NCBI GenBank assembly: GCA_028875185.1
Contig: JAPPFH010000137.1
Span: forward strand, 1-46,766
DNA from: Chloroflexota bacterium
Lineage (GTDB): Bacteria; Chloroflexota; Anaerolineae; Aggregatilineales; Phototrophicaceae
Reading direction: 5' to 3'
Length of the DNA stretch: 46,766 bases
A model generated the notes under the pieces. The model did no database searches, was not told the DNA's origin, and saw nothing but the letters and a program-made list of their open reading frames with translations. Every line of letters begins with the position of its first letter. The stretch's first letter is position 1. Of the stretch, positions 2,441-40,672 are shown piece after piece. The translations under genes and the position numbers were made by a program.

Positions 2441-3625
2441 TTACAGTTTGACGACAGGCCTGGACAGACTTAGTCCATCACGATTGAGCTCGACGCCCCA
2501 GCCCGGTTTGTCGGGCAGCACGAGGCAGCCGTCACGCGGCAGCGGCTCCTCGATGAAGATGTCCCCAAAAATCGGCGCGATCCGGTCGGCGGCGGGGCTC
2601 ATCATTAGGAACTCCGCCATCGGGCAATTGGTGAAGGCGTATTGCAAGTGATAAGCGTAGATGCCGGAGCCATGAGGAATAACCGGAATATCATAAGCGG
2701 CTGCCATGGCGACGATGCGCCGCGCTTCCGTCAATCCGCCGACCCAGGTCAAGTCCGGCTGCAGGATGTCGAAGCACTTGCGCGCAATCAGCTCACGATA
2801 GCCGTAGCGGGTATATTCATGTTCGCCGCCTGTGAACAAGCAGGATGATACAGAGTTTTTCAATTCGGCGCAGCCGTCATAATCGTCGGGCGGCAGGCAC
2901 TCCTCCAGCCAGTAGACATCGAAAGGTTCCAACGCGCGCGCCAATTCGGCAGCGTAGGGTACGGTGAGCGCCATATAACAGTCAAACATGAGGCGGAAGT
3001 CCGCCCCGACTTGCTCTCTCGACGATTCCATCAGCGCCAGGTTAAGTTTCAAGCCTTCTACACCATCGGCGGGACCATACATGAGAGGCAGCTTGGCGCC
3101 CTGGAAGCCCATTTCCCGCGCCAGATCGGGGCGTATCGTGGTCGCGTACATGGGCAGCTTGTCTTTGGTCTTGCCACCCAGCATCGCATAGACAGGCTCA
3201 TCGCGCAGTTTGCCCAGCGCATCCCAGAGCGCCAGATCAACAGCGCTAATCGCCTGAAGCGCCAATCCTTTGCGCCCGTAGGGCAAGGTCGCCCGCCACA
3301 TCTGATCCCAAATGCGTTCGACATTGTACGGGGATTGACCGAGTAAAAAGCGTTTGAGATGTCGTTCGATGATGAAACAGGCGGGTTCGCCGCCGGTGCT
3401 AAGGCCGACGCCGATCATGCCGTTATTCAATTCAACTTCGACAATCACGCTTCCCAGCGCGTTTATGCCCCAACTGGTTCTCGATGCCTTGTATTCCTCA
3501 TAGACGGACATGGGGTTGGCGATAGGCGTATCAATAATCCAGTGCCCTTGCGCTTGATCATGGTAATCCGCCCCGCCAGAATCGACGATATAAGCGCGTA
3601 CATCAGCTATTCTTGCGCTCCGCAT
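2441..3625 (-). CDS. L-rhamnonate dehydratase-like enolase-superfamily enzyme
   Basis: A 394-residue mandelate racemase/muconate lactonizing enzyme homologue. It aligns from memory along its whole length with E. coli RhmD: N-terminal DYHDQ...HW, the SxxSxGIN segment, YATxxRPDLAxEMGF, and C-terminal DKPGxGVELNRD. Visible catalytic residues are Mg ligands D215, E241 and E268, and the D291/H318 acid-base dyad (IPHGSGIY). The family dehydrates acid sugars to 2-keto-3-deoxy acids. The true substrate may differ from L-rhamnonate, because acid-sugar specificity shifts readily in this superfamily. It is the last gene of the minus-strand operon, 21 bp after the D-aminoacylase-like gene. Confidence 0.85.
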   Translation of the reverse strand: MRSARIADVRAYIVDSGGADYHDQAQGHWIIDTPIANPMSVYEEYKASRTSWGINALGSVIVEVELNNGMIGVGLSTGGEPACFIIERHLKRFLLGQSPYNVERIWDQMWRATLPYGRKGLALQAISAVDLALWDALGKLRDEPVYAMLGGKTKDKLPMYATTIRPDLAREMGFQGAKLPLMYGPADGVEGLKLNLALMESSREQVGADFRLMFDCYMALTVPYAAELARALEPFDVYWLEECLPPDDYDGCAELKNSVSSCLFTGGEHEYTRYGYRELIARKCFDILQPDLTWVGGLTEARRIVAMAAAYDIPVIPHGSGIYAYHLQYAFTNCPMAEFLMMSPAADRIAPIFGDIFIEEPLPRDGCLVLPDKPGWGVELNRDGLSLSRPVVKL

Positions 3626-3646
3626 TCGACGTTTCTCCGGAAATGA

Positions 3647-5266
3647 CTAAAAGCTGCTGTGGCGTTCATGCCGGCGGCCGTAAGGATCGCGCAGCGCGCG
3701 GCCCGGCGTGGCGCCGGTGACCTGCCCATCAGCCAAAGCCTGCGCACCGTTGACGATTACGTCGCTCACCCCTTCGGCATGGCTGCGGGGATTATCGTAT
3801 GTGGCGGTGGCGCGCAGCTCGTCAGGATCAAACACAACAATATCCGCCTTGCATCCCGGGCGGACGATGCCCCGATCGAGGCTGCCAATGCGCCGCGCGG
3901 GAGCGGATGTGATCTTGCGGATGCCCTCCTCCCAGCTGAGCAATGCCAGGTCACGCACATAGCGCGACAAGAATCGCGCGTGCGCCCCCCATCCTCTCGG
4001 ATGTGGCTGCCCGCCGACCAGGATGCCATCGCTGCCGACGACATGCGCCGGGTGCCGCATGATAGCCTGAACATGCTCTTCAATGCCGAAGAAGGCGAGC
4101 CCTGATACACCCAGCCGCGTCTCTACAAGCAAATCGGCGAAGAAGTCAAAGGGCGTCTTGCCTGCGCGCGTGGCGGCATCCGGCAAGCTCATGCCGATGA
4201 TCGCCGGATCGTGATCGCCCAGAATCCCGCCGATCCGCAGCATCTCCCAACCCAGCGGCACGCCTTGCATGCCATCGGAGCCGGTCACTTCCAGTTCGTG
4301 CCGCAGTCTCGCCCGGCTCTCTTCAGCTTGCAAGCTTTCCAGGATTGCATCGGCGCCGCCCTCCTGCGCCCAGCTCGGCAGAAAGGCGTGCAGGTAGGTC
4401 TGCCCGGCCAGGTAGGGGTAGGCGTCCATGGTGACCTCGACGCCAGCCGCGCGCGCCTCGTCAATCATCGCAATCAATTCGCCGACCCGCCCCTCATTAA
4501 TTTCGAAGCTGAGATGGCAATGGGTCAGATGCGTTGGGACGCCCGCGCGCCGCCCGATTTCGATTGAGTCCCAATATCCCTTGAGCGCCTCGGTGCCATA
4601 ATTGCGGTGATGTGGGCAGTAGAAGCCTCCATAAGGTTGTATGACTTGGCAAAGCTCCACCAGTTCGTCATCACTGGCAAACATGCACGGCGCGTAAGTC
4701 AAGCCGGTTGACAAGCCGATCGCGCCTTCACGCATGCACTGGTCGATAATCGCTTTCATGCGCGCCATCTCGGCGTCGGTTGGCTCCCGATTCTCCATGC
4801 CGACCACCGCCATGCGCACCGTACCCTGCGAGGCGAGGGTCGCTACATTGACGACTGAGCCGCCATCGAAGCGATCCAGGTATTCGGTCAGCGTGGACCA
4901 ATCGCGATCGAAATCTGGCAGCCCGTTCCAGGCGGCCAACTGTTCAGACAATATGTCACGCGTCTCCGGCGTCGCCGGCGCTAGTCCCAGCCCGTCATGC
5001 CCAATGACATCGGTGGTCACGCCTTGATAGAGCTTGCACTCATGGTAAGGATTTACCAGTGGCTGCAAATCGGAATGCGTGTGCATGTCTATGAAACCCG
5101 GGCTGACGATGCGCCCATCGGCATCAATCGTCTTCCGGGCGGCGCCGCCGCGGATGCTCCCCACAGCGACAATCTGATCGCCGTCGATGGCGATGTCCGC
5201 CCAATACCAGGGCGATCCCGTACCGTCGATGACCCGTCCGCCGCTTATCAGAAGATCGTGCATCAA
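3647..5266 (-). CDS. D-aminoacylase / N-acyl-D-amino-acid deacylase family amidohydrolase
   Basis: A 539-residue amidohydrolase of the COG3653 type, usual size for the family. N-terminal beta-sandwich strands lead into FIDMHTHSD (H62, H64), followed by QGVTTDVIGHDG, THLTHCH mid-barrel, and VGSDGILVGGQPHPRGWGAH with the catalytic Asp. Characterised D-aminoacylases hydrolyse N-acyl-D-amino acids. In those enzymes a Zn-ligand Cys sits in the G-N-C-G motif; here the position reads G-H-D-G (D91), so Asp replaces Cys. This may mark a different substrate class, such as another cyclic or linear amide. It overlaps the upstream oxidoreductase gene by 4 bp (translational coupling). Confidence 0.8.
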   Translation of the reverse strand: MMHDLLISGGRVIDGTGSPWYWADIAIDGDQIVAVGSIRGGAARKTIDADGRIVSPGFIDMHTHSDLQPLVNPYHECKLYQGVTTDVIGHDGLGLAPATPETRDILSEQLAAWNGLPDFDRDWSTLTEYLDRFDGGSVVNVATLASQGTVRMAVVGMENREPTDAEMARMKAIIDQCMREGAIGLSTGLTYAPCMFASDDELVELCQVIQPYGGFYCPHHRNYGTEALKGYWDSIEIGRRAGVPTHLTHCHLSFEINEGRVGELIAMIDEARAAGVEVTMDAYPYLAGQTYLHAFLPSWAQEGGADAILESLQAEESRARLRHELEVTGSDGMQGVPLGWEMLRIGGILGDHDPAIIGMSLPDAATRAGKTPFDFFADLLVETRLGVSGLAFFGIEEHVQAIMRHPAHVVGSDGILVGGQPHPRGWGAHARFLSRYVRDLALLSWEEGIRKITSAPARRIGSLDRGIVRPGCKADIVVFDPDELRATATYDNPRSHAEGVSDVIVNGAQALADGQVTGATPGRALRDPYGRRHERHSSF

Positions 5267-6291
5267 TTTGCTCCCGTGATTTCAGCGTCCCGATAGGCGT
5301 CCAGCGTCACTTTCATCAGCTGCCGCGCCACCGACCCGTCGGTCTGCGGTCGCGCGCCACTGTCGATGCAGTCGAAAAAGTGACGAACCTCCTCAGTCAA
5401 ATCCAAGCCTTCGTCACTATCGACCAGGATCTTCTCATCCGCTCCCGCTTCAGAGACGGTGACCTGCGAGCGCCAGGCGCAGCGGACGCCTTCGACCGCC
5501 AATTTGCCCAGCGGGTGTACAGTCAGCGTGATTACCGCGCGCTCGCAATAAGCGCGCATGGTGTACCAGCGATGCGGCTTGGGCGAGAACCAGGTGTGCC
5601 TCGTCGTCCCGACGACGCCGTTTTTGAATTTGATGATAGAGATTGCGGTGTCTTCGCCTTCCATTGGCAAGCCAGCATGGGCGCCGACCATCGACGCGGA
5701 CTGCACTTCACCCGCGATCCACAGCATAACGTCAAGCATATGCGCCGACGCCGAAAAGTACACGCCGCCGCCAAGCGTCGCCTTCTTTACAAACCAGCCA
5801 CCGGTGATGTATTCGCGATTGTCTTCGTCCATGAAGGCATCCAACATGAACAAGCGGCCATAATCGCCGCTATCGATGACCTGCCTGAAGGCTTGCGTGC
5901 TTTTGCGATAACGGTGCGGAAGCGCAATCATCAGCGTCTTGCCCTGCCCCTCGGCTTTGGCGATCATGTCATCGGCTTCTTCCAACGTCAGCGCGAAAGG
6001 CTTTTCCAGCAGCACATGACAGCCGGCCTGCAGCGCGTCCAGCGTGATTGGATGATGCAAGTGATGCGGCACAAGAATCGAGACCGCATCGACGCGGTCC
6101 AAGCCGTCGCGATAATCGCTTAGAACGTCGACATTGCCCGAGGCCAACGAATCGGCGATCCCTTGAGCGCGTTCTCTTTCGGGATCGGCCGCCCAGACCA
6201 CATCGGCTCGGTCACCCAGCCGATTCAGCGCTTGAACATGAAAGGGCGCGATCCAGCCGCAGCCGATGATTCCCAATCTCAATTTGCTCAT
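5263..6291 (-). CDS. Gfo/Idh/MocA family oxidoreductase
   Basis: A 342-residue NAD(P)-dependent dehydrogenase. The N-terminal Rossmann fold shows GIIGCGWIA (residues 8-16), and LLEKPFALTLEEAD carries the EKP motif with the conserved Lys. The C-terminal alpha/beta domain (about 125-340) supplies substrate specificity. The family oxidises or reduces pyranoses, inositols and related polyols. It sits between the D-threonine-aldolase-like gene (11 bp upstream) and the D-aminoacylase-like gene (4-bp overlap), so it belongs to the same transcript. It is only distantly similar to the other Gfo/Idh/MocA protein in the operon, which suggests two successive redox steps. Confidence 0.85.
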   Translation of the reverse strand: MSKLRLGIIGCGWIAPFHVQALNRLGDRADVVWAADPERERAQGIADSLASGNVDVLSDYRDGLDRVDAVSILVPHHLHHPITLDALQAGCHVLLEKPFALTLEEADDMIAKAEGQGKTLMIALPHRYRKSTQAFRQVIDSGDYGRLFMLDAFMDEDNREYITGGWFVKKATLGGGVYFSASAHMLDVMLWIAGEVQSASMVGAHAGLPMEGEDTAISIIKFKNGVVGTTRHTWFSPKPHRWYTMRAYCERAVITLTVHPLGKLAVEGVRCAWRSQVTVSEAGADEKILVDSDEGLDLTEEVRHFFDCIDSGARPQTDGSVARQLMKVTLDAYRDAEITGAN

Positions 6292-6302
6292 TTCCCTCGC
6301 CC

Positions 6303-7412
6303 CTACTGTGATTTACCCCGCGCCGCCACCACCCATTCGGCGATCACGCGCTCGCCCTGTGTAATCGCCATGCTGTCGAAGAGGTTAACCACCGGACAGA
6401 TATGATTGGGGATGACTTGGACCCGTTCGCCAATCTGTACCGGATCGTCAACTGGAATGGTCGTTGCGCCATGCTCTTCGCTCAAGCTCGAAATCTCCCA
6501 ATCCGGATGATCGATGACGTACCCGTGCCCGGCCACCGGCGGCGCGACGCCGGCTCGGTCGCTCGTCAGCGCTTTCGTGCCCGAATCAAGGATGATGCGA
6601 TTGGCGGTCGGGCGCGTCGCTACGGTCGCCAATACGCGCGCGGCGCATCTGTCGGGCTTGACAACCCGATGCAGCACCTCACTGCGATCGTAAAAGACAT
6701 AAATGCCCGGGCGCGTCTCGGTCACGCCATCGACGGTCGCGGTGATCTTGGCGGTGGCGGTCAAACCGACAGAAATGATCGGCACTTGCAAGCCGGATTT
6801 ACGGATCAACTCGGCGGTTTCCGCCATCATCTGCCCGGCTGATAACCCGGTCGAGCGAACCGCTTCCGGCGCGCCCGCCAGTTGAGCATGCCCTTCGTGG
6901 GTCAGCAAGCCGGCAAAATGCAGTCCGGGCAGACGCGCGACATGCCGCGCCAGTTCGCGCGCTGGCTCAAGCGGGCGTACGCCACAGCGATTCAGCCCGG
7001 TGTCAACCTCGACCATCACCGGCAGTTCGAGCCCGCTCGCGCTCATCGTTCGCGAAAGCGCGGCGGCAATATCCGGGTGATCGACGACGGTCGTGACGCG
7101 CGCGCGTTGGCAGAGTTCTATCAGTCGCCGATGTTTCGCTTGACCCACGAGCGGATACGCGACCAGAATCTCGCCGCAACCGGCGTCGATGAAGACTTCC
7201 GCTTCGCTGAGCTTAGCGACAGTCAGGCCAGCGGCGCCGGCTTCCAACTGGAGCTTGCCGATCTGAGGTGTCTTATGCGTCTTGGCATGTGGACGCAGCT
7301 GAATGTCATTGGCATCGGCGAAATCAGCCATGTCCTCGATGTTATGTTTCAACTTGTCGATATCGACAATCAGCGCCGGCGTGTCCAGCTCGCTTATATG
7401 CGTCGCCATCAA
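6303..7412 (-). CDS. D-threonine aldolase / D-serine dehydratase-like PLP enzyme
   Basis: A 369-residue fold-type III PLP protein with an alanine-racemase-like N-terminal barrel and a C-terminal beta domain (DSD1/D-threonine aldolase family). RPHAKTHK contains the probable PLP lysine K44. EVDTGLNRCGV and the SVG...ATA phosphate-binding segment follow. H336 and C338 in PNHICP match the metal-binding His-x-Cys seen in eukaryotic-type D-serine dehydratase. The family cleaves beta-hydroxy-D-amino acids to an aldehyde plus glycine, or dehydrates D-serine. Next to a D-aminoacylase-like enzyme it suggests breakdown of a D-configured beta-hydroxy amino compound. It overlaps the phosphotriesterase-like gene by 4 bp. 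Confidence 0.82.
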   Translation of the reverse strand: MMATHISELDTPALIVDIDKLKHNIEDMADFADANDIQLRPHAKTHKTPQIGKLQLEAGAAGLTVAKLSEAEVFIDAGCGEILVAYPLVGQAKHRRLIELCQRARVTTVVDHPDIAAALSRTMSASGLELPVMVEVDTGLNRCGVRPLEPARELARHVARLPGLHFAGLLTHEGHAQLAGAPEAVRSTGLSAGQMMAETAELIRKSGLQVPIISVGLTATAKITATVDGVTETRPGIYVFYDRSEVLHRVVKPDRCAARVLATVATRPTANRIILDSGTKALTSDRAGVAPPVAGHGYVIDHPDWEISSLSEEHGATTIPVDDPVQIGERVQVIPNHICPVVNLFDSMAITQGERVIAEWVVAARGKSQ

Positions 7413-8359
7413 AACGCCAACACCCGCTGCGGGTTGGTCACAAACATGGTCTCGATCTGGCTATCAGTGACGCCGTGAGCGCGCTGTAACTTGGGCACGA
7501 ACTGCGTATAGACGTAGGTGTAATCGTCAAAGACCTCATCACCGGAGGCCGCTTCATAGCCATGCGCGAATACAGCGGCGTCGTGGCTCAGCATAATCTG
7601 GTCGATATAGCCTTTCTTGATCGCGTTGCCCACAACTTCGAGCCAATGTTCATCTTCAAAAAAGGCGCCGACCATGCCGATGCGGTCCATGCTGACATTG
7701 GCGCCGCGCTTTAGCACTGCCTCCGACCCGCTGATCGGATCGGGCTGGCAGCCGATATGGCTGAGGATGACCTCATCGGGCATGACACCCTCCGATTCAA
7801 AGATGTCGAGCTGCTCAGGACCCAAGCCGTCCGTGGTGTGCGTGATGATTGGGCAGCCGGTCGCCTTGCGCGCCCGTGACGCGGCGCGCAGAACTTCCTC
7901 TTCTTTCGCTGATATCTGGCCTTCACCGGTAGCGCATTTGATTAAGCCGGCTTTCAGCAGCGTGTCGCCCATGCCCTCGTTGATTTCCCGAACGAAGAGC
8001 GCCGCCATCTGGTCAATATCCATTAATTGCGCATAGAGGTGCATAGGCGACCAGGATTCGTGGAAGAAGCCGGTCGAGCAAATCAGCTTGACTTTGCTGC
8101 GGCGGGCGACATCGAAATAGAGATCGAGATAACGCCCAGTGCCGATGGGCGTGCATTCGGTCATGGCGCCGATGCCAGCCGCGTACAGTTCATCCATCTT
8201 GGCGACCATCCGGTCGACCATTTCGCCGCGGTCGAAATCCTGCACCTTTGGCCGCCCCAGAAGATCGCCCCAGTCCACACAGAGATGTTCGTGAATCAGC
8301 GTCCGCCCCAGCGCTTCCGGCGCGACATCGCCCGTGATCGTCCGTACCTTTTTTGACAT
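7409..8359 (-). CDS. Phosphotriesterase-family metallohydrolase (probable lactonase or esterase)
   Basis: 316 residues from the ATG at 8359. That start is preferred because GGAGG lies 8 nt upstream; a TTG five codons earlier would overlap this ribosome-binding site. The binuclear metal site of the phosphotriesterase family (COG1735) is complete: H23 and H25 (IHEHL), bridging lysine K141 (LIKCATG), H174, H201 and D260 (MLSHD). Natural members of this branch are often lactonases or act on phosphosugar lactones. In this operon a lactonase between a sugar dehydrogenase and an acid-sugar dehydratase makes chemical sense, but that is inference. It lies 16 bp after the second Gfo/Idh/MocA gene. Confidence 0.82.
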   Translation of the reverse strand: MSKKVRTITGDVAPEALGRTLIHEHLCVDWGDLLGRPKVQDFDRGEMVDRMVAKMDELYAAGIGAMTECTPIGTGRYLDLYFDVARRSKVKLICSTGFFHESWSPMHLYAQLMDIDQMAALFVREINEGMGDTLLKAGLIKCATGEGQISAKEEEVLRAASRARKATGCPIITHTTDGLGPEQLDIFESEGVMPDEVILSHIGCQPDPISGSEAVLKRGANVSMDRIGMVGAFFEDEHWLEVVGNAIKKGYIDQIMLSHDAAVFAHGYEAASGDEVFDDYTYVYTQFVPKLQRAHGVTDSQIETMFVTNPQRVLAF

Positions 8360-8375
8360 TGCCTTGCCCTCCAAT

Positions 8376-9353
8376 TTAATCGTCCAGTCTTACAGGTTTG
8401 CCCGTCCGCGCGGATTCATAAGCGGCCTGCACACAAGCCAAGCTGCGCCTGCCATCCTCGCCGCTGACGCAGGGTTCGCGGTCTTCCGCAATCGCACTGA
8501 TGAATTCGCCGATTTCCTTTTCAAACATGTCGTCGCGCTCGCGCTGCTGCCGCCATGTGTGATGCGCATTAGAGAACTCCAGCGATTGCCAGGTGTCAAT
8601 GCGGATCGCTCCCGCAGTGCCATGGATATCCAAATCGCACTTGAATGGCACCGCCGCATCGGTCACCCAGTTATGGACTGTCATGCCCATAGCGCCATTC
8701 GCGAAGCGCAGCGCGACCACGGCGCTGTCTTCTACCGTCTTGCGCGAGTCGTAAGTCTGCGCATAAGCGAATACCTCGACGATTTCCGCGCCCATCAACC
8801 AGCGCAAGCGATCGAAGCTGTGAGCCCCGTTGACGTGCAAGACACCGCCGCCGGACTCGGACTGCCGCCAAAACCAGCCGGGAATCACGCCGCCGGTTGT
8901 CATCACATCAATCGCCAGCGTCAATTGCCCCAGTTCACCGGCATCAATCAGCCGTTTCGCCGTCTGCAACTCGGAGTGAAATCGATGGGTGAAGCCGATC
9001 ATCAGTTTGACGCCGGCGCGCTTCTGGGCGGCCAGCATTCGGTCAGCCTGCGACAGCGAATTCGCCATCGGTTTCTCCAGCAGGATATGTTTGCCCGCTT
9101 CGGCGGCGGCGATCGTCGCCTGCTCGTGCAAATGGTGCGGCAGGGCGATATACACCGCATCTATCGTCTCATCGGCCAGCACAGCGCGGAAATCCGTTGC
9201 TGTGGGGATATCATGCGGTTCCGCCAGCGCGCGCGCGGCATCTTCGGCAATATCGCAAATGACAGCGACATCCAAGCCGGGCACATCCGGCGCCGCCTCC
9301 ATGAATGTCTTGGCGATTATCCCCGCGCCCAGAACGCCAAGCCGAATCGACAT
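8376..9353 (-). CDS. Gfo/Idh/MocA family oxidoreductase
   Basis: A 325-residue Rossmann-fold dehydrogenase with LGVLGAGIIA (residues 5-14) for NAD(P) and ILLEKPMANSLSQAD with the EKP motif. The C-terminal half contains VNGAHSFDRLRWLMG, typical of the substrate domain. Family members act on sugars, inositols and sugar acids. It starts the catabolic half of the operon, only 4 bp after the last permease gene, so uptake and first oxidation are probably coupled in expression. The substrate cannot be inferred from sequence. Confidence 0.85.
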   Translation of the reverse strand: MSIRLGVLGAGIIAKTFMEAAPDVPGLDVAVICDIAEDAARALAEPHDIPTATDFRAVLADETIDAVYIALPHHLHEQATIAAAEAGKHILLEKPMANSLSQADRMLAAQKRAGVKLMIGFTHRFHSELQTAKRLIDAGELGQLTLAIDVMTTGGVIPGWFWRQSESGGGVLHVNGAHSFDRLRWLMGAEIVEVFAYAQTYDSRKTVEDSAVVALRFANGAMGMTVHNWVTDAAVPFKCDLDIHGTAGAIRIDTWQSLEFSNAHHTWRQQRERDDMFEKEIGEFISAIAEDREPCVSGEDGRRSLACVQAAYESARTGKPVRLDD

Positions 9354-9357
9354 CGTT

Positions 9358-10245
9358 CTATCCCTTTACTGCGCCTTCGCTTAGACCGCGCACCAGGTAG
9401 CGCTGAAAGACGAAGGCGATGACGACCGGCGGGATCACGCCGATGACGGTCGCCGCCGCCAGCGCGTTCCAGTTGACCTGGTGCAAGTTGCGAAACGACA
9501 TCAACAAGGGTGGATAAGTTAGCGAGTTGGTCAGTGTCAACGCGAAGAAAAACTCGCTCCAAGCCTCCATGAATGACATGACGCCAACCGCGATGATTCC
9601 CGGAACCGCAAGCGGCGCCACCACCATGCGGAAAGCCTGCCACCGGGTCGCGCCATCAATCAGCGCCATTTCCTCGATATCGCGAGCGAGCGTATCGAAA
9701 TACTCACGCAGGATCCAAATGGTCAGCGGCAATATGAATATCGTATATGTGAGGATCAGCGCCCCGAGCGTGTTCACCAATTTCAGTTTCCGCAATATGA
9801 CAAAGAGCGGCACAATCAGGCTCAATGCTGGCAGCACGCGTGTCATCAGAATCCCAAAATAGGCGGCGCGCGCGAGACGGAAATCAAAGCGGGAAAAGGC
9901 GTAAGCAGCCATTCCACCGATGAGTAGATTCGATAAGACCACGGCAACCGAGACGAAGGTGCTGTTGAGCAGCGCGGGCATCATGCGGGTGAATTCGGTC
10001 GTGGAGCCATATCCGCCGGCTTCGCCCGCTTTGCCGATTAATACCTCTCGGTAATTATCCGCCGTTGGCTCGGGCGGTATCCAGTGTGGCGGCTTGGCGC
10101 CCAAGTCCGGCGCGCGCATAATGCTGGTGATCAGCATATAGTAGACTGGGAATCCCACCCAGAAGAGCAGGCAACAGAAAGCCAAATAAGTCGCAATCTT
10201 GCGGATAATGCCGGACTTGCGGACGCGACCGCCAATCGCTGCCAT
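9358..10245 (-). CDS. ABC sugar permease, MalG type (copy 2)
   Basis: A 295-residue inner-membrane permease of the carbohydrate-uptake CUT1 family. There are six predicted hydrophobic segments, the first at about residues 16-38, and a cytoplasmic EAA loop EEMALIDGATRWQAFRM that docks the ATPase. The sequence from about residue 16 to the end is roughly 80% identical to the product of the neighbouring 10249-11133 gene. Differences concentrate in the N-terminus and in the periplasmic stretch after TM1 (about residues 40-80). It lies 3 bp after that gene. Having two MalG-type subunits with one MalF-type subunit is unusual; see findings. Confidence 0.88.
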   Translation of the reverse strand: MAAIGGRVRKSGIIRKIATYLAFCCLLFWVGFPVYYMLITSIMRAPDLGAKPPHWIPPEPTADNYREVLIGKAGEAGGYGSTTEFTRMMPALLNSTFVSVAVVLSNLLIGGMAAYAFSRFDFRLARAAYFGILMTRVLPALSLIVPLFVILRKLKLVNTLGALILTYTIFILPLTIWILREYFDTLARDIEEMALIDGATRWQAFRMVVAPLAVPGIIAVGVMSFMEAWSEFFFALTLTNSLTYPPLLMSFRNLHQVNWNALAAATVIGVIPPVVIAFVFQRYLVRGLSEGAVKG

Positions 10246-10248
10246 CAG

Positions 10249-11133
10249 TTAGCCTTTCACCGCGCCTTCGCTCAAGCCACGCACGAGGTAGCGCTGGAAG
10301 ACAAATGCCACCGTTACTGGCGGCAAGACGCCGATTGTAGTCGCCGCCGCCAACCCGTTCCAATTGACCTGCGCCAGATTCCGATACGACATCAACAGCG
10401 GTGGATAGGTTAACGAATTTGTGAGCGTAAGCGCGAAAAAGAACTCGCTCCACGCTTCCATGAACGACATCACGCCTACCGCGATCAGCCCGGGTACCGC
10501 CAGCGGCGCAACCACCATGCGGAAAGCCTGCCACCGCGTCGCGCCGTCGATCAGCGCCATCTCCTCGATATCTCGCGCCAGCGTGTCGAAGTATTCGCGC
10601 AGAATCCAGATCGTGAGCGGAAGGATAAAGATGGTGTAGGTGAGGACCAGCGCCCATAGCGTATTAATCAAGGCGAGTCTTCTAAGAATGATGAACAGCG
10701 GCACAATCAAGCTCAATGCGGGCAGCACGCGGGTCATTAAGACGCCGAGATAGACGATCCGCGACAGACGAAAGTCAAATCGGGAAAATGCGTAGGCCGC
10801 CATCCCGCCGATGATGAGATTAGAAAAGACGACCGCAACAGAAACAAAGGCGCTGTTGAGCAATGCCGGCATCATGCGCGAGAACTCGCCATGTGAGCTA
10901 TGCGCGCCTCGAATCGCAGTTTCGCCCATCACAACTTCTCGATAGTTTTCTATAGTGGGCTGCGTCGGAATCCAATTCGGTGGCTTGGCGCCCAACTCGC
11001 GCGAATTCATAAAGCTGGTGATAAGCATGTAATACACGGGAAAACCAACCCAAAAGAGCAGGCAGAAGAATGCCAAATATATAGCCAATTTGCGTACGAT
11101 TGCTTGGCAATACTCACGATAAGAGCGGTTCAT
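10249..11133 (-). CDS. ABC sugar permease, MalG type (copy 1)
   Basis: A 294-residue CUT1-type permease with an EAA loop identical to its paralogue (EEMALIDGATRWQAFRM). It runs TM1 FFCLLFWVGFPVYYMLI, a periplasmic loop, TM2-6, and ends with LSEGAVKG. It would pair with the MalF-type subunit encoded immediately upstream (9 bp) to form the channel. The start ATG has GGCAGG a few bases upstream. The neighbouring paralogue indicates tandem duplication within the operon followed by divergence of the external loop. Confidence 0.88.
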   Translation of the reverse strand: MNRSYREYCQAIVRKLAIYLAFFCLLFWVGFPVYYMLITSFMNSRELGAKPPNWIPTQPTIENYREVVMGETAIRGAHSSHGEFSRMMPALLNSAFVSVAVVFSNLIIGGMAAYAFSRFDFRLSRIVYLGVLMTRVLPALSLIVPLFIILRRLALINTLWALVLTYTIFILPLTIWILREYFDTLARDIEEMALIDGATRWQAFRMVVAPLAVPGLIAVGVMSFMEAWSEFFFALTLTNSLTYPPLLMSYRNLAQVNWNGLAAATTIGVLPPVTVAFVFQRYLVRGLSEGAVKG

Positions 11134-11142
11134 GGACCTGCC

Positions 11143-12066
11143 CTAGGCGTATGTCGCCTGCGACCGATAGATCAGGCGCACGAAGATCAACCCGACTCCC
11201 ATGGTGATCAAACCCAGCACATTCGATACTGCCGCGCCCATGCCCAAATCAAAATTGATAAAGGTGTAGCGATATAGCAGCACCGAGATGAGCATGGTCG
11301 CATCGCCAGGTCCGCCCTGTGTCATAATCCAGACGGCGTCAAACTGCAGGAAACCCAAGACGACGTTGTAGAGCAGAACGATGGTAAGCGTGGGGCGCAG
11401 CCAGGCGAAGGTGATGAAGCGAAATCGCGCTCGCATCCCGGCGCCATCCACTTTCGCGGCATCGTAGAGATCCTCCGGTATTGTCTGCAATGCGGCCAGC
11501 AGCAGGATTGCGCTGAAAGACGTCTGCCGCCAAGCGGAAGCCAAGGCGGTGAAGATCAGAGCCAAGTCCTCGTCAGCCATGAAGGGAATGTATTTCTCGA
11601 TCAAACCCAAGCTGTATAACAAGCCATTCAGCGCGCCGAACTGCGCATTAACGACCCAATTCCACAACAGACCGACAACGATCCAGGGCAAAGCCCAAGG
11701 CAAGATCAATAAGGTGCGCCCAATGCTGCGACCCGTGAAGTTTTCAACCAGCAGCAAGGCAAAGAATAGACCTATCAGCGTAGGAACAGTCACCACGATA
11801 GCGGCAAATTTTAGGTTGACTTCGACCGCCTTCCAGAAAAGACGGCTGCCGAAGAGCTCAACATAATTGTCAAGGCCAACGAAAGTTGTCCGATCGCGGA
11901 TGAGATCAATATTTGAGAAGCTGTAGTAAATCGTAGTCGCTAAGGGACTGAGGATGATGACGAATATGGTGATGAGCGCGGGCGCCAAGAGCGCATACGG
12001 GATCCATTTGCGGTCCCAATGTCTGCGCTGTTTCGCTGCCGCTTTTCCCAATTGTGGTGACGCCAA
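11143..12066 (-). CDS. ABC sugar permease, MalF type
   Basis: A 307-residue CUT1 permease. After a basic cytoplasmic N-terminus (KQRRHWDRKW) come six TM segments, with the EAA-like motif IPEDLYDAAKVDGAGMRARFRFI. It partners the MalG-type subunits. I see no ATG before the first TM segment. The best start is TTG at 12066, with GGAG about 8 nt upstream; a CTG further upstream in the same frame cannot be excluded. It is the first permease gene after the solute-binding protein, separated by a 127-bp gap that holds a long hairpin. No ATP-binding subunit is encoded in this operon, so a shared ATPase encoded elsewhere is probably used. Confidence 0.85.
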   Translation of the reverse strand: MASPQLGKAAAKQRRHWDRKWIPYALLAPALITIFVIILSPLATTIYYSFSNIDLIRDRTTFVGLDNYVELFGSRLFWKAVEVNLKFAAIVVTVPTLIGLFFALLLVENFTGRSIGRTLLILPWALPWIVVGLLWNWVVNAQFGALNGLLYSLGLIEKYIPFMADEDLALIFTALASAWRQTSFSAILLLAALQTIPEDLYDAAKVDGAGMRARFRFITFAWLRPTLTIVLLYNVVLGFLQFDAVWIMTQGGPGDATMLISVLLYRYTFINFDLGMGAAVSNVLGLITMGVGLIFVRLIYRSQATYA

Positions 12067-12110
12067 GACCTGGTCTCCATCCAGTTTGCGGTCTAGTTGA
12101 GCGGCGACAA

Positions 12111-12151
12111 TGGCATACAGCTTGGGACTTGGCGCCCCAAACTGTATGCCA
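12111..12151 (-). other. Long hairpin between binding-protein and permease genes
   Basis: The arms TGGCATACAG (12111-12120) and CTGTATGCCA (12142-12151) pair perfectly over 10 bp. After one mismatch, TTGGG (12122-12126) pairs with CCCAA (12136-12140), leaving a 9-nt loop. The hairpin lies just after the solute-binding-protein gene in the transcript and is not followed by a U-run, so it is not a canonical intrinsic terminator. By analogy with known binding-protein-dependent transport operons it may stabilise the upstream mRNA and lower permease expression. Confidence 0.7.
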
Positions 12152-12193
12152 ATTCAATCGCTCATGTGTGGATGAAGCAGAGTGAACACCCGC

Positions 12194-13501
12194 TTACGAG
12201 TATTGCTCGCGCAACTCCACTACCTTGTCGGCCAAACTGGTTACCGCGTCCGCTGCCGCCAGATTCCCTTGGAGCATCCGCTGTATCTCATCGCCGACAT
12301 GCGTCTGGAATTCGCTGTACCAGGGCTGATTCCGCGCCTGGACGACATCAGAATTGTTCGCGAACATATCCTTGATCTGATCGAAGTCGTAGTAGTTGCC
12401 GTAGTTGGCTTGCACTTCAGGGTCATCGTAAAAGTCAGGATATGGCGCGCCTAAAGCGGCTGCAGCTGCCCAAGATTTGTGCACCGAGCGTTCGCCGTTC
12501 GCGTCTTTCCAGGTATAGAATTTGACCAAGTCCCATGACTTGTCGACATTTGGACCATCGGACATCTGTACCACTTCGCCCATTTGGAAGGTCTTGCCAT
12601 CGGAACCGGGCATCCGACCGGCAATGCGCAGATGATCAACCTCCGGACCGCCGCCACTGTTCATCAGCTTCAGGAAATAATGATGCAAGACGTAGAAAGC
12701 CGATGTGCCGTTTTGCATGGCAGTCATCTGTTCGCCCGGCTGGTCGGTGAGCTGTGTAGGCGACGTCATGCCGTCCTGGAACATCGCTTGCCACCACTCG
12801 AACACATCCGCCGTCCTGGAATCATCGGCAAACGCGGGTTCGCCATCGGGCGAGAAGGGCGTAATGCCTTCCGAAAGCAAATAAACCTGGAGATATTCCT
12901 CACAGAATTCTTTGATCCAGTAAGCCAGATAGGGCGCTTCGACGCCGTCTTCCTTCAATTTCTTGCATTGATCGTAGAGGTCCTGCTTGGTTTCGGGCGG
13001 CGCGTCAAAGCCCGATGCGCTCAGCAAGCGTTCGTTGTAATGCAAAACATGCACGGCGCTGAAATAGGGCATGCTGATTAGCTGACCATCCGGCGTGGTG
13101 TAAGAAGGCACTGAACTGGCGAACATTTCGCTCATGACGGCATCAGCATCCGGCAAGTCGTCCATGCGCCGCGCCCAACCAGCGTTGAAGAAGCGCGTCG
13201 AGTTATACTTGAAGTTGTAGTAGACATCCATGTGGACGCCACCGAGGATCTTCGTCTGCAGGCCGGTGGAGTAGCCGACATTGGGAATGATATGGAGCTC
13301 GACCGGTGTGCCGGATTGCGCTGTGTAATTGTCCAAATGCTCGCGAATCGTATCCGGCTGGAAGTCCCAGCCATAGAACTGCAGCGCGTCTCCCTGCGCC
13401 AGCAAGCGGCTGGCGGGCGCGCCCGCCAGCGCCAAAGACGCAAGCCCAGCCCCAGTCCCGCGCAAAAACTGCCTTCTTGATATTGAGCTTCTGTTATTCA
13501 T
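12194..13501 (-). CDS. ABC sugar-type extracellular solute-binding protein (Tat signal)
   Basis: 435 residues from the ATG at 13501. That start is chosen because GGGAGAAAG lies directly upstream; the nine earlier codons would overlap it. The N-terminus carries a twin-arginine signal (S-R-R-Q-F-L-R-G at residues 8-15), a hydrophobic stretch, and ASRLLAQ. The mature part resembles family 1 solute-binding proteins (COG1653), with typical YWIKEF, NGTSAFYVLHHYF and C-terminal helical segments. It should capture the substrate outside the membrane and deliver it to the permeases encoded downstream. It is first in the ten-gene operon, as usual for the most highly expressed component. The ligand is unknown. 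Confidence 0.87.
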   Translation of the reverse strand: MNNRSSISRRQFLRGTGAGLASLALAGAPASRLLAQGDALQFYGWDFQPDTIREHLDNYTAQSGTPVELHIIPNVGYSTGLQTKILGGVHMDVYYNFKYNSTRFFNAGWARRMDDLPDADAVMSEMFASSVPSYTTPDGQLISMPYFSAVHVLHYNERLLSASGFDAPPETKQDLYDQCKKLKEDGVEAPYLAYWIKEFCEEYLQVYLLSEGITPFSPDGEPAFADDSRTADVFEWWQAMFQDGMTSPTQLTDQPGEQMTAMQNGTSAFYVLHHYFLKLMNSGGGPEVDHLRIAGRMPGSDGKTFQMGEVVQMSDGPNVDKSWDLVKFYTWKDANGERSVHKSWAAAAALGAPYPDFYDDPEVQANYGNYYDFDQIKDMFANNSDVVQARNQPWYSEFQTHVGDEIQRMLQGNLAAADAVTSLADKVVELREQYS

Positions 13502-13621
13502 TTCGCTTTCTCCCTTAAACGTCGCCAATCACAATACCACTGCGCTTCTGATAAACCGACTCAACGAACATTTCGAACTGGCAAGACCAGCGGCACCTTG
13601 TTTGAGCCGACCAGCGTTGAA

Positions 13622-13675
13622 CGTTGGTTAAGCCAACGATGGGCAGATCATAACATGCGCGCGAACCCGCCGCAA
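13622..13675 (-). promoter_or_regulatory. Candidate promoter and operator of the ABC/catabolic operon
   Basis: On the minus strand an extended -10, TG-T-TATGAT (TATGAT at 13652-13647), lies 17 nt after a weak -35, TTGCGG (13675-13670). The predicted start near 13640 falls next to a palindrome with arms CGTTGG/CCAACG and a 5-nt centre (13622-13638), where a repressor operator would be expected. The untranslated leader would be about 139 nt. No regulator gene is in the window. The 506-bp gap 13502-14007 otherwise holds only the repeat at 13751-13807 and a small CCCC/GGGG hairpin near 13850-13880. Confidence 0.45.
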
Positions 13676-13750
13676 ATTTCGAGCCGGGCTGGAGTGGTCA
13701 ATTATTGATACCGCGACAAACACCATCCCCGAAGGTCTATGTCTACGTGA

Positions 13751-13807
13751 CCCGGCCCCTTGCCGTAGTGCAGTGTCTACGCGCGCCCCACAAGGAGGGA
13801 AGGGGAG
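13751..13807 (+). repeat. C-rich dispersed box with an internal insertion
   Basis: CCCGGCCCCTTGC at the left and CCCCACAAGGAGGGAAGGGGAG-like sequence at the right match the two halves of the element at 23871-23915. Here about 21 nt that include GTGTCTACG separate the halves. GTGTCTACG also occurs within the repeat at 17119-17172, so modules of different repeats are mixed. Confidence 0.6.
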
Positions 13808-14007
13808 TTTTTCAAGGAATTACGGGCTTTTGAAGTCCCTCCCTCATTTTGGGAAACATCCCCCGTGAGGCGGGGACCGAGGGGGAACAAGATTTAGGGT
13901 GGGGGAAACGAGGGATATATCAACACATTCACCACATCCGCCAGTCCAATCAAGGCTTGCAATTACCGCGCTTTTATTTGGATTAGGCGGCGGCGTCTGC
14001 ACCCGCT

Positions 14008-14298
14008 CTAACCGCGATTATCCGCGGTGGGTTCGACGATGACATTGACGAATTCAAACTTCTGCTTGTTTCGGTACTGCGTGTTCTCCGCGTGGTTAGT
14101 CTCGACCAGCGTCACTTGCGTTCCCAAGCTTTCCAGGACGTATCTGGTGTGCCATTCGCCGGATCGCTGCACATTGCGCATGTAGAGGAGACGCGCCTTG
14201 GGATCCATCAGACGGAGTTTGAACTTAGCGCGCCAGAGTCTCATGCCGCTGAGCTCGTCGAGCAAAGAGCGGCGCTCCCCTTCATTGAGATATGGCAT
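14008..14298 (-). CDS. Conserved-looking small protein of unknown function
   Basis: A 96-residue, mostly polar protein with no signal peptide or membrane segment. It begins MPYLNEGERRSLL and has a strongly basic region (RLWRAKFKLRLMDPKARLLYMRN) followed by a beta-rich C-terminal half. Codon use is normal for the window, and the reading frame is open with a sensible start, which supports it being real. It is divergent from xseA, with 75 bp between the two starts. I do not recognise the family. A nucleic-acid-binding role is conceivable from the charge but unsupported. Confidence 0.6.
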   Translation of the reverse strand: MPYLNEGERRSLLDELSGMRLWRAKFKLRLMDPKARLLYMRNVQRSGEWHTRYVLESLGTQVTLVETNHAENTQYRNKQKFEFVNVIVEPTADNRG

Positions 14299-14373
14299 GG
14301 CTGCACCTCACGATAATTGCGAAATCTGGGATAATTGTAACGGTCGAAGCGCGGCATCACAACGGGGTATGCC

Positions 14374-15564
14374 ATGAAAACTTTTTCCGTCTCTGAGATT
14401 ACGGGTTACATCCATGAGTTGTTTGACGCCGACCGTGTTCTAGCCGATGTCTGGGTGCGCGGCGAGGTTTCGAATCTGACAAAGGCGCGTTCGGGCCACT
14501 GGTATTTCACGATCAAGGATGCCGCGGCGCAACTGCGCTGCGTGATGTTTCGCGGCGCGGCGCGCCGTTTGCGGATCGAGGTTGCGGCGGGCGACGAGAT
14601 TCTTGCGCATGGGCGGGTTAGCGTTTATGAGGCGCGCGGCGAGTACCAGCTATATGTAGAGAGCATTGAGACGATCGGCGGCTTTGGCGATTTGCATCGG
14701 CAATTCGAAGCGCTGAAGGCGAAACTGGATGCCGAGGGTCTGTTTGACCCGGCGCGGAAACAGCCAATCCCCGTTTTCCCCGCGCGCCTCGGCATCGTCA
14801 CCTCCCCAAACGCGGCCGCCTGGCACGATATACAAACGGCGCTGCAACGGCGCTTTCCCCTTGTCGAGGTCCTTTTGAGCCCGACCTTGGTGCAGGGCGC
14901 GGAGGCGCCGCAGCAGATCGTGATGGCGCTGGAACGGCTCAATCGGCGCGCGGATACCGATGCGATCATCGTCGCGCGCGGCGGCGGCTCGCTGGAGGAC
15001 CTTTGGTGTTTCAACGACGAAGGCGTGGCGCGGGCGGTGGCGGAGAGCCGCATACCGGTGATCAGCGGCGTCGGGCACGAGATTGACTTCACGATTGTGG
15101 ATTTCGCCGCCGATCTGCGGGCGCCGACGCCATCAGCCGCGGCCGAACTGGCGACGCCGAATCGCGATGATCTGCTGCTGGATGTAGATCGCCTGCGCGC
15201 CCGTCTGGCTGGCCTCTTCAGCGCAGCGCTGCGGGAGAACGCGCGCGATCTTGGGCGGCTGCGAAGCGCGCTGCGTTTCGTCACGCCGGGCAAGCGCATC
15301 GCGCTGCAAGAGCGAGAATTGGCGGCGCGGCGGCTGCGACTGTCGCGCGCGGCCGCGGCCGCGCTGGAACGGCGCCGCGATCAACTGGCGAGCGCGATCA
15401 AAGCGCTGGCGCGCGCCAGCCCCGATCATATTCTGGCGCGCGGTTATGCGCTGGTCACGGATGAAAGCGGCGCGCTCATCCGCGAGGCGGCGCAAGTCAG
15501 CAAGAATCAACGATTGAACGTACAATTAGCGAAAGACCAGATCAAAGTCAAGGTCGACGGATGA
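14374..15564 (+). CDS. xseA: Exodeoxyribonuclease VII large subunit
   Basis: A 396-residue catalytic subunit of exonuclease VII, which degrades single-stranded DNA from both ends in the cytoplasm. The N-terminal OB-fold domain (about residues 3-100: SVSEITGYI...VWVRGEVSN) is followed by the nuclease core with the family motifs VARGGGSLEDLW and PVISGVGHEIDFT. A long Arg-rich helical region (about 270-360) binds the small subunits, and the end is ILARGYALV. It is slightly shorter than the E. coli protein (456). It overlaps xseB by 4 bp, giving translational coupling that helps the needed excess of small subunit. Confidence 0.95.
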   Translation: MKTFSVSEITGYIHELFDADRVLADVWVRGEVSNLTKARSGHWYFTIKDAAAQLRCVMFRGAARRLRIEVAAGDEILAHGRVSVYEARGEYQLYVESIETIGGFGDLHRQFEALKAKLDAEGLFDPARKQPIPVFPARLGIVTSPNAAAWHDIQTALQRRFPLVEVLLSPTLVQGAEAPQQIVMALERLNRRADTDAIIVARGGGSLEDLWCFNDEGVARAVAESRIPVISGVGHEIDFTIVDFAADLRAPTPSAAAELATPNRDDLLLDVDRLRARLAGLFSAALRENARDLGRLRSALRFVTPGKRIALQERELAARRLRLSRAAAAALERRRDQLASAIKALARASPDHILARGYALVTDESGALIREAAQVSKNQRLNVQLAKDQIKVKVDG

Positions 15565-15770
15565 TGAAAGACATTGCCAATCTGAGCTACGAAGAAGCCT
15601 ACGAAGCCTTGGAAGCGCTGGTGGCGCGGATGGAGAGCGGCGCCTTGCCGCTGGAGCAAACAGTGGCGCTGTATGAGCGCGGCCAAAAGCTCGCCGCCCA
15701 TTGCCAAGCGCTGCTAGAGGACGCCGAACTCAAGATCAAGCTGCTGGATGAAGCAGGTTCAGCGGATTAG
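15561..15770 (+). CDS. xseB: Exodeoxyribonuclease VII small subunit
   Basis: A 69-residue helical protein typical of XseB: LSYEEAYEALEALVARMESG, LPLEQTVALYERGQKL and CQALLEDAELKIKLL. Several copies coat the coiled coil of XseA. The ATG overlaps the end of xseA, and the rRNA methyltransferase gene follows after 24 bp, so the three probably share a transcript. Confidence 0.93.
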   Translation: MMKDIANLSYEEAYEALEALVARMESGALPLEQTVALYERGQKLAAHCQALLEDAELKIKLLDEAGSAD

Positions 15771-27907: not shown

Positions 27908-27936
27908 ATTATATGGGGTTCATGCTGGGCAAATCG
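27908..27936 (-). promoter_or_regulatory. Weak candidate promoter for the glycosyltransferase gene
   Basis: A perfect minus-strand TATAAT (27913-27908) lies in an AT-rich patch at the 3' end of the upstream glycosidase gene, about 130 nt before the glycosyltransferase ATG. There is no convincing -35 (CGATTT near 27936). Apart from this patch I see nothing specific in the gap 27778-27919. Confidence 0.25.
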
Positions 27937-29137: not shown

Positions 29138-29138
29138 C

Positions 29139-30566: not shown

Positions 30567-30640
30567 GTCCGCTCCTGCGAGCCGCAGCCCCGTCCGAGAT
30601 TACACCAGATTGCGCCGGCGCGGGAGTGCGTTTTGCGGCG

Positions 30641-33481: not shown

Positions 33482-33501
33482 CTGTCGGCTGCGGCTGGCT
33501 G

Positions 33502-34149
33502 CTAACCCGCCTCGCCCCGCGCGCTTGCCACGGCATTCACCAGAATCCGCGCGCGGCTGCGCAGCTGCGACTTCGACCAGGTCCCATCGCCGACCAGCCA
33601 AGCGCCCATGCCGCAGGCGACCGCGCCCGCCCGAATGAATTCGCGCGCATTCTGATCGGTGATCGCGCCGTTGCACATGAAGGTCATATGTTTGAGCGGG
33701 CCGAAGATCGCCGTGAAATAATCGATGCCGAGCGCGCCAATCGGGAAAAGCTTGAGCAGCGGCACGCCCATGCCCCAGGCGGCGACCGCTTCCGAGGGCG
33801 TGGCGACGCCCGGCCCCATCAATACGCCGCGCGCCATTACCGCGCTGGCGACATCGGGCTGGAAAGCGGGCGAGACGACGAAATCAGCGCCGGCATCCAG
33901 CGCCCGCCGCGCTGAATCGACATCGAGCACGGTGCCCATGCCGATGCAAGCTTCAGCGCCAAACTCGGCTTTTAGCCCGCGCATCGCCGCGATCGGCTCC
34001 TCCGAGTTCATCATCAACTCGAAGACGCTGATGCCTTCGTTCATCAAGACTTCGGCCACGCCAAGCGCGACATCAGGCGGAAAAGCGCCGCGCATGCCGG
34101 CGACGATGCCGGTCGATTCAATCTGACGCAGGGCGGCAACGCTATCCAT
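33502..34149 (-). CDS. KDPG/KHG-type class I aldolase
   Basis: A 215-residue (alpha/beta)8 aldolase of the Eda family, which splits 2-keto-3-deoxy-6-phosphogluconate or 4-hydroxy-2-oxoglutarate to pyruvate plus an aldehyde. The Schiff-base lysine is K133 in LLKLFPIG, E44 (FELMMNS) is the catalytic Glu, and CIGMGTVLD and VSPAFQPDV are typical. It might also serve KDPGal (DgoA-like); the three cannot be told apart by eye, hence no symbol. The anchored GH18-like fusion gene starts 20 bp after its stop. A divergent glycerate kinase lies on the other side. Confidence 0.87.
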   Translation of the reverse strand: MDSVAALRQIESTGIVAGMRGAFPPDVALGVAEVLMNEGISVFELMMNSEEPIAAMRGLKAEFGAEACIGMGTVLDVDSARRALDAGADFVVSPAFQPDVASAVMARGVLMGPGVATPSEAVAAWGMGVPLLKLFPIGALGIDYFTAIFGPLKHMTFMCNGAITDQNAREFIRAGAVACGMGAWLVGDGTWSKSQLRSRARILVNAVASARGEAG

Positions 34150-34211
34150 CAGCCTTGATATTTCCCTTTGGCCTATGTTTGCAACGGCGATGGTTGGTTA
34201 TCATTCGCTTC

Positions 34212-34258: not shown

Positions 34259-34364
34259 CAAGGTCCAAGCGAGAAATCGGGATTCGGCCCTGGCGCGCCG
34301 ACCGCTGTAAACTGATCGAAGCGCGCCCGCGAAAAGTAGCGCAAGGTAAAACGGAGATGGAACC

Positions 34365-40643: not shown

Positions 40644-40672
40644 GCCGAGCCGTTTGGCGGCCGAACCTCCAC

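Follow-up and report, generated by a model that had tools for sequence, protein, structure and literature searches.

A ten-gene operon on the minus strand of a Chloroflexota contig (positions 2441-13501 of JAPPFH010000137.1, assembly GCA_028875185.1; the whole 46,766-nucleotide stretch is hereafter called the window) is proposed to serve the oxidative, non-phosphorylative import and utilisation of an N-acyl-2-amino sugar. We give this reading an even chance, because the substrate assignment rests on context. The operon itself is a real, selected and conserved catabolic unit. Its genes, in the order SBP-MalF-MalG2-MalG1-Gfo2-PTE-DSD-Gfo1-DAA-RhmD, were all recovered where the initial annotation had placed them, and the single packed transcription unit it described was borne out, intergenic spacing ranging from -1 to 21 bases with the starts chosen here, except for 127 bases between SBP and MalF. 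The family calls agreed as well, comprising one SBP_bac_1 protein, three BPD_transp_1 permeases, two Gfo/Idh/MocA dehydrogenases, and one protein each of the PTE, MR_MLE, Amidohydro_3, and Ala_racemase_N plus D-ser_dehydrat families. A promoter and terminator scan was uninformative (promoter-like sites numbered two, with 1.4 expected from shuffled sequence; terminator-like sites were absent, with 2.5 expected). The genome, of which the window is contig C36, spans 4.37 Mb in 158 contigs and is an estimated 93.8% complete.

Homology and gene context are the basis for every step of the proposed route. The sugar would be imported by the Tat-exported substrate-binding protein (SBP, P0010, 12194..13501; PF01547 and TAT_signal), of carbohydrate uptake transporter 1 (CUT1) type, the MalF/UgpA-type permease (P0009, 11143..12066; PF00528) and the MalG-type permeases (copy 2, P0008, 10249..11133; copy 1, P0007, 9358..10245; both PF00528), together with a MalK-type ATPase encoded elsewhere. 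Gfo2 (P0006, 8376..9353; PF01408/PF02894), a putative amino-sugar 1-dehydrogenase, would convert the N-acetyl-amino sugar by oxidation at C1 into a lactone, which the phosphotriesterase-family metallohydrolase PTE (P0005, 7409..8374; PF02126, 205 bits), a candidate lactonase, would open to the N-acetyl-amino-aldonate. DAA (P0002, 3647..5266; PF07969, Amidohydro_3), a D-aminoacylase-fold amidohydrolase and proposed N-acetyl-amino-aldonate deacetylase, would then strip the acyl group; for a sugar configured at C2 like N-acetylglucosamine (GlcNAc) or N-acetylgalactosamine (GalNAc), the resulting 2-amino-aldonate would be a beta-hydroxy-D-alpha-amino acid. From this product DSD (P0004, 6303..7412), a fold-III pyridoxal 5'-phosphate (PLP) enzyme and putative 2-amino-aldonate ammonia-lyase, would remove ammonia, leaving a 2-keto-3-deoxy-aldonate to be cleaved by an aldolase encoded elsewhere. 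Gfo1 (P0003, 5263..6291; PF01408/PF22725), the second Gfo/Idh/MocA dehydrogenase, and RhmD (P0001, 2441..3625; NF011968), an L-rhamnonate dehydratase homologue of the enolase superfamily (MR_MLE), would probably form a second branch leading from an L-rhamnose- or L-mannose-type sugar to the same class of 2-keto-3-deoxy acid. All ten genes lie on the minus strand.

Conservation within the genus was assessed by scanning genome contigs with PTE as query, which returned 17 loci, 14 of them from the genus (L031-L044); L001-L016 mostly come from duplicate genomes of these and were not counted twice. Gene order is identical in all 14 genus loci up to the contig ends, and the scattered arrangement that would have spoken against the initial annotation was not seen. 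SBP, MalF, at least one MalG, Gfo2, PTE, DSD, Gfo1, DAA and RhmD are all present in 13 of the 14, and the full ten-gene set in 11; the contig of L043 stops after Gfo1, before DAA, and its DSD reads as two pieces. Orthologues of SBP (at least 87% identity) occur in 16 of the 34 genus genomes and those of RhmD (at least 81% identity) in 14, the genome of the window being included in both counts. Matches to SBP at 1e-20 extend to 30 of the 34, 14 of which hold just a 27-30% paralogue, and matches to RhmD at 1e-80 to 16, two of them with a 42% paralogue alone. Within the genus the operon seems to occur either as a whole or not at all, because all 14 RhmD-holding genomes lie among the 16 SBP-holding ones and the two exceptions with SBP but no RhmD (G004 and G005) carry the locus on contigs of 11,471 and 3,405 bases. 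No SBP match at 1e-20 was found in the 67 relatives outside the genus. Across all ten genes, dN/dS against six relatives ranges from 0.023 to 0.164. The named relatives are Chloroflexi/Anaerolineae metagenome-assembled genomes, which, to judge by their isolate names, are presumably sponge-associated; a literature search by these names found no mention of the isolates in the papers listed.

The most informative relative is L092, a locus in genome G718 of a different Chloroflexota class, with the order Gfo-MalG-MalF-SBP-PALP-DSD-DAA-PTE followed by divergent short-chain dehydrogenase/reductase (SDR) and DgaE/SelA-like genes. Identities to the window are 30% for Gfo (against Gfo2), 48% for MalG, 47% for MalF, 53% for SBP, 43% for DSD, 45% for DAA and 60% for PTE, while its PALP is 62% identical to that of L055. 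No orthologue of RhmD, Gfo1 or a second Gfo occurs on the whole 23,339-base contig. Partial versions of the set recur elsewhere: DAA immediately precedes PTE in L045 (PTE 69%) and L046 (PTE 67%), and on the 4.5 kb contig of L047 a 70% Gfo2 relative precedes a 76% PTE relative. In L055 and L056, from another family of the window's class, PTE and DAA (each 61-62%) stand with M81, a PALP of the D-cysteine-desulfhydrase/CuyA kind, Gfo, M20, SDR and UroD-like genes, of which the M81, M20 and UroD labels were assigned by sight and are to be taken as our assumption. PTE and DAA thus occur together without RhmD in the available stretches of L045, L046, L055, L056 and L092. Because the L092 contig has neither RhmD nor Gfo1 while its remaining genes are syntenic, the shared core is predicted to consist of importer, Gfo, PTE, DAA and PLP lyase, to which the genus of the window seems to have added RhmD and Gfo1, with the caution that a dehydratase lies nearby in both. 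The single dehydrogenase-lactonase-dehydratase route of the initial annotation consequently need not be linear, and a linear core running through RhmD was set aside.

Orthologues of PTE are rare, being found in 7 of 396 genomes of the class (1e-80), and, at 1e-90, in 1 of 177 genomes of the class of G718 and 2 of 400 draws from the phylum. This rarity suggests gene transfer or loss, and the possibility that PTE is a widespread Chloroflexota gene was rejected on the same counts.

The initial annotation could match the gene combination to no known pathway; in that form this is not supported, since the deacylase and PLP pair follows the OngB/OngC logic of an oxidative chitin pathway, as far as the available excerpts of PMC9537276 and PMC12017989 describe it. 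In the ong cluster of Pseudoalteromonas prydzensis, OngB is reported to deacetylate N-acetylglucosaminic acid (GlcNAc1A) and OngC, a PLP enzyme of fold type III, to deaminate the product to 2-keto-3-deoxygluconate (KDG) (PMC9537276, excerpts); OngB has the D-aminoacylase fold (PMC12017989, excerpts). Both systems would accordingly pair a D-aminoacylase-fold deacetylase with a fold-III PLP deaminase to yield a 2-keto-3-deoxy acid. By this analogy DAA and DSD fit the OngB and OngC steps, and Gfo2 and PTE fit as the dehydrogenase and lactonase that would make the N-acetyl-aldonate from the free sugar. According to the same excerpts, the ong cluster imports a pre-oxidised acid through a sodium:solute symporter (SSS) and has the RidA protein OngD, KdgK, OngA and TonB-dependent receptors, whereas the operon of the window combines a CUT1 ABC importer with two dehydrogenases, a PTE hydrolase and RhmD and contains neither a RidA nor a kinase gene; in a family scan, none of its ten proteins matched a RidA, kinase, SSS or GH20 family. 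With the deacylase and the PLP enzyme as its sole genes of the ong kind, it falls short of the rule of at least four co-occurring ong homologues given in the excerpts of PMC9537276. No description of an orthologous operon was found in the open-licence PubMed Central (PMC) literature.

DAA, whose PDB matches include D-aminoacylase and PpOngB, aligns with retention of the HxH motif, two further His ligands, the catalytic Asp and Arg377 of AfDam. Its Asp and His, however, stand where PpOngB has Cys97 and Lys254, that is, in place of the metal-ligand Cys, reported to be strictly conserved in D-aminoacylases (PMC12017989, excerpts), and of the carboxylate-binding Lys (Lys252). Of the earlier D-aminoacylase-like call, fold and most ligands therefore stood, while two family-conserved residues proved to be replaced; on these replacements DAA was neither accepted as a plain D-aminoacylase nor filed as a member of the OngB family. 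At the AfDam pocket positions F191, M254 and M346, P0002 has T, S and G, as do all 13 genus DAAs tabulated, against Ala, Ala and Gly reported for PpOngB (PMC12017989, excerpts), so that the pocket positions are small or polar as in a PpOngB-like GlcNAc1A deacetylase. Of the two PpOngB residues that contact the C3/C5 hydroxyls, Ser292 and Gln298, the position of the former is Thr in P0002, as in D-aminoacylases, and that of the latter is unalignable.

The residue table covered 58 sequences besides that of the window; L111 aligned poorly at the first three positions, and L045 was excluded for masked bases in its DAA frame. Asp, Thr191 and Gly346 are kept in L046, L055, L056, L058-L061, L087 and L088, with Lys252 replaced by His, Gln or Thr. 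Cys and Lys are both kept in L067, L086 and L120, Asp occurs with Lys in L108-L110, L112, L085 and L119, and Cys without Lys in L121 and L122; Asp in the absence of Lys was seen in other tabulated Chloroflexota DAAs too, in some cases alongside Gly346. To judge from this alignment, Asp is widespread, and the window's DAA group is marked by the full residue combination and by no single position. In trees built with FastTree and IQ-TREE and rooted on the D-aminoacylases AfDam and BbDam, the DAA of the window groups with L046, L055/L056, L058-L060, L087 and L088 (ultrafast bootstrap 100; FastTree local support 0.95).

A plasmid search with DAA returned 61 records, and the regions of seven, hand-picked mostly for having annotation, were viewed. 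The closest DAAs, from Tsukamurella (L087, 49%) and Arthrobacter (L088, 47%), lie in clusters (8380-15653 and 6304-13706, respectively) reading RidA-IclR-PfkB kinase / fold-III PLP enzyme-DAA-KDPG/KHG aldolase-GntP, the aldolase being of the 2-keto-3-deoxy-6-phosphogluconate/2-keto-4-hydroxyglutarate type. For the kinase of L087, the best model is that of the KDG/2-keto-3-deoxygalactonate kinase, at 140.7 bits, under the 440 cut-off. These actinobacterial clusters share the adjoining DAA and fold-III PLP enzyme with the window but differ in having a GntP symporter for the ABC importer and their own kinase and aldolase, and in their available stretches no Gfo, PTE or RhmD was found. The lack of Gfo and PTE is expected if GntP imports an open-chain acid, a lactonase being needed just where a dehydrogenase makes a lactone. 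The clusters appear to correspond to the ong pathway, and no description of them was found in the open-licence PMC literature. The other five plasmid DAAs (36-40%) have mixed contexts, several of a D-amino-acid type, and fall outside the window's DAA group. Within that group, L058 (identical to L089; 55%) stands among HpcH, dihydrodipicolinate synthase (DHDPS), GntR and major facilitator superfamily genes.

DSD combines PF01168 and PF14031 with a PHxKT motif, the Lys of which we take to be the PLP lysine. Its NHIC aligns with NHAC of the D-3-hydroxyaspartate dehydratase 3wqc, while the D-threonine aldolases 4v15 and 7dib have SHVD; the His-x-Cys or His-x-Asp residues are presumably the metal site of the family. 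The earlier D-threonine-aldolase/D-serine-dehydratase-like call is refined in that a D-threonine aldolase is considered less likely, the motif being His-x-Cys rather than the His-x-Asp of the two aligned aldolases. A plasmid search with DSD gave 274 records, of which five regions, again hand-picked mostly for annotation, were viewed. Four of these (Phyllobacterium, Nitratireductor, Rhizobium and Paracoccus) hold M81, RidA and an RpiR-type regulator, accompanied by an SDR in three, an adjoining CUT1 importer in two, and, in one, a tripartite ATP-independent periplasmic (TRAP) transporter with a KDG-kinase-like gene (239 of 400 bits). The alphaproteobacterial clusters L126, L127, L129 and L130 combine an M81 'metallopeptidase' with a D-threonine-aldolase-family PLP enzyme, RidA and a regulator of the RpiR type, and some of them add SDR genes, CUT1 or TRAP transporters and a sugar kinase. 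In these clusters the deacylase may be M81; no description of such M81/PLP/RidA clusters was found in the open-licence PMC literature.

In these relatives DAA, DSD and PTE are linked with importers and KDG-type genes, which supports a substrate that is part sugar and part amino compound. The hybrid substrate put forward in the initial annotation is supported in that relatives associate the deacylase and the PLP enzyme with importers of sugars, with genes resembling KDG kinase and with a KDPG aldolase. It is unlikely that the operon feeds instead on N-acyl-D-amino acids or other D-amino-acid compounds, such as peptidoglycan or peptide fragments, with DAA as deacylase, DSD deaminating products of the D-serine/D-threonine type, and Gfo, PTE and RhmD forming a separate, co-transcribed sugar-acid route. 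The DAA and DSD families both carry D-amino-acid names, distant DAA relatives adjoin dpaL, a dipeptide epimerase, DUF1611 and a DSD-like gene, and OngC is reported to deaminate D-Ser and D-Thr too (PMC9537276, excerpts). The importer, however, is of the sugar type and is joined to DAA, DSD and PTE in a second class as well, the closest non-Chloroflexota DAA relatives seen sit with KDG-kinase-like and KDPG aldolase genes, and AfDam pocket residues M254 and M346, together with the carboxylate Lys, are replaced in DAA.

With 526.7 bits, RhmD exceeds the cut-off of 393 set for NF011968, the equivalog model of L-rhamnonate dehydratase, which firms up the earlier RhmD-like label, and its closest PDB entries are 2oz3 and the rhamnonate dehydratases 3fxg and 2p0i. 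It is predicted to be an equivalog-level L-rhamnonate dehydratase, but stands in a mixed operon without a 2-keto-3-deoxy-L-rhamnonate (KDR) aldolase. Gfo1 and Gfo2 are 32% identical over 237 residues. The NF011968 match of RhmD, and the non-phosphorylative rhamnose/fucose pathways with mandelate-racemase-like enzymes proposed for SAR202 Chloroflexota (PMC10444878, excerpts), would suit an operon devoted mainly to non-phosphorylative utilisation of L-rhamnose (or L-mannose or L-lyxose) through Gfo, a PTE lactonase and RhmD, with DAA and DSD handling a minor amino-substituted analogue or having drifted to new roles. We regard that as quite improbable, given the syntenic L092 contig without RhmD or Gfo1 orthologues, the further loci where PTE and DAA occur without RhmD in the available stretches, and the five HpcH aldolases of the genome, all of which, scored over their full frames, stay below the KDR-aldolase cut-off (at most 120.9 of 441 bits).

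PTE matches many phosphotriesterase and organophosphorus-hydrolase PDB entries, and the Lys aligned against 4if2 is kept, presumably as the metal bridge. The only plasmid match (36%) lies in a region with M81 and SDR genes and no clear amino-sugar set. The match to phosphotriesterase-like lactonases (PF02126) is at family level, and the lactonase role is predicted. That PTE is instead an amide hydrolase, with DAA opening a cyclic intermediate, the reactions running in another order and an N-acyl aminosulfonate or other N-acyl amine as possible substrate, is very unlikely: hydrolysis of N-acetyltaurine is reported for PTER (PMC11374699, excerpts) and the best model for PALP is the D-cysteate sulfo-lyase CuyA (287 bits in L055, 260 in L092), but these scores lie under the cut-off of 450, the RhmD and Gfo genes indicate sugars, and the GntP clusters of L087/L088, without PTE in their available stretches, imply that DAA alone can deacylate.

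For the importer, the earlier sugar-type call stood, the SBP_bac_1 protein and MalF/MalG-type permeases matching the CUT1 type, and was refined to one MalF, two MalG paralogues and no ATPase gene. The SBP start at 13501 is an ATG just before the Tat signal, with a longer TTG frame from 13528. The protein has weak similarity to sugar-binding proteins of solved structure; a plasmid search with it gave no match, and its AlphaFold2 prediction was unusable (mean predicted local distance difference test score 33.9). The MalG paralogues stand in tandem (9358-11133) and are 81% identical; two copies occur in 12 of the 14 genus loci and a single copy in two. In L042 both copies pair together in a MalG tree, the pattern expected from gene conversion. 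Neither an ATPase nor an aldolase gene is among the ten of the operon. Elsewhere in the genome there are four MalK-type OB domains among 114 ABC ATPase matches, and aldolase candidates of the HpcH (five), DHDPS (seven) and KDPG (two) types; one KDPG-type aldolase gene lies inside the window (33502-34149). At L135 (7397-9412, G000:C95), an HpcH/HpaI-type aldolase gene directly adjoins one for a MalK-type ATPase, making these a candidate shared ATPase and keto-acid aldolase.

Several observations weigh against an operon for N-acyl-2-amino sugars. Carboxylate binding may differ because Lys is His and Cys is Asp in DAA, as in 13 of 13 alignable genus DAAs; position 191 discriminates poorly, since BbDam, a D-aminoacylase, also aligns with Ala there. 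The L092 DAA joins the window's group next with an ultrafast bootstrap of 98 but a FastTree support of 0.05, and the L090 DAA (52%), in that group, stands beside Amidohydro_3 and methyltransferase genes with no sugar genes. The D-amino-acid genes beside distant DAA relatives count in the same direction, as does the Chelatococcus DSD relative, which adjoins an amino-acid ABC transporter. PTE falls under the cut-offs of the three NCBIfam PTE-family models listed, and no lactonase equivalog was matched at cut-off. Aldolase and RidA genes are missing from the operon, and no gene of the genome attains the KDG-kinase cut-off (the highest score is 81.7 of 400 bits). The main route does not require RhmD. 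On the same strand, farther along the L092 contig and about 7.7 kb from its Gfo, a separate transport unit joins a CUT2-type transporter to an enolase-superfamily gene that shares 26% identity with RhmD (closest model galactonate dehydratase, 153 of 311 bits), so that the theme may include a dehydratase after all. This unit (L136, 3252-7365 of G718:C21), downstream of the related operon and on its strand, comprises a CUT2 periplasmic binding protein, an ATPase, a permease and the dehydratase.

A fuller version of the proposal is tentative and on balance doubtful. It would be an undescribed aldose-level route for N-acetyl-amino sugars in which the sugar is never phosphorylated, combining ABC import, Gfo oxidation at C1, lactone opening by PTE, deacetylation by a new D-aminoacylase-fold clade of the Asp/His type and ammonia removal by a fold-III PLP lyase; in the genus of the window it would be fused with the RhmD branch, two sugars from a single glycan of host or symbiont thereby being taken up and ending in the same class of keto acid.

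Convergent with the operon are two plus-strand genes of uncertain membership, one for a class-III aminotransferase resembling glutamate-1-semialdehyde aminomutase (GSAM; P0013, 1133..2428; PF00202), which scores over the PRK00062 cut-off and under that of hemL, and one for an Amidohydro_2 hydrolase (P0012, 244..1131; PF04909). The GSAM-like gene adjoins the operon in 12 of the 14 genus loci and the Amidohydro_2 gene in 10; the former is not within the 20,960 bases of L032, and L043 stops too early to tell. Upstream lies P0011, probably xseA. Farther into the window, 20 kb from the operon, the KDPG/KHG-type aldolase gene (minus strand) lies beside a glycerate-kinase-family gene (plus strand; 33502-35498 together). 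Three large minus-strand open reading frames at 27920-33676 have marginal glycoside-hydrolase matches (GH39/42/18-like), and two neighbouring ones at 38110-40727 (401 and 471 amino acids, minus strand) have no Pfam match at 0.001.

If the proposal is correct, it would assign roles to broadly named families, namely Asp-site D-aminoacylases, PTE-family hydrolases and D-threonine-aldolase-family PLP enzymes, and connect them in amino-sugar-acid catabolism in both Chloroflexota and Actinomycetota and, for the PLP family, in Alphaproteobacteria too. It would also point to a concrete food source for uncultured Chloroflexota that, on an unconfirmed reading of isolate names, are probably sponge symbionts. 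Sponge glycosaminoglycans are reported to include GlcNAc, fucose and glucuronic acid (PMC6306507, excerpts). In addition, the operon would release nitrogen by a route distinct from the usual GlcNAc pathway, in which the sugar is phosphorylated.

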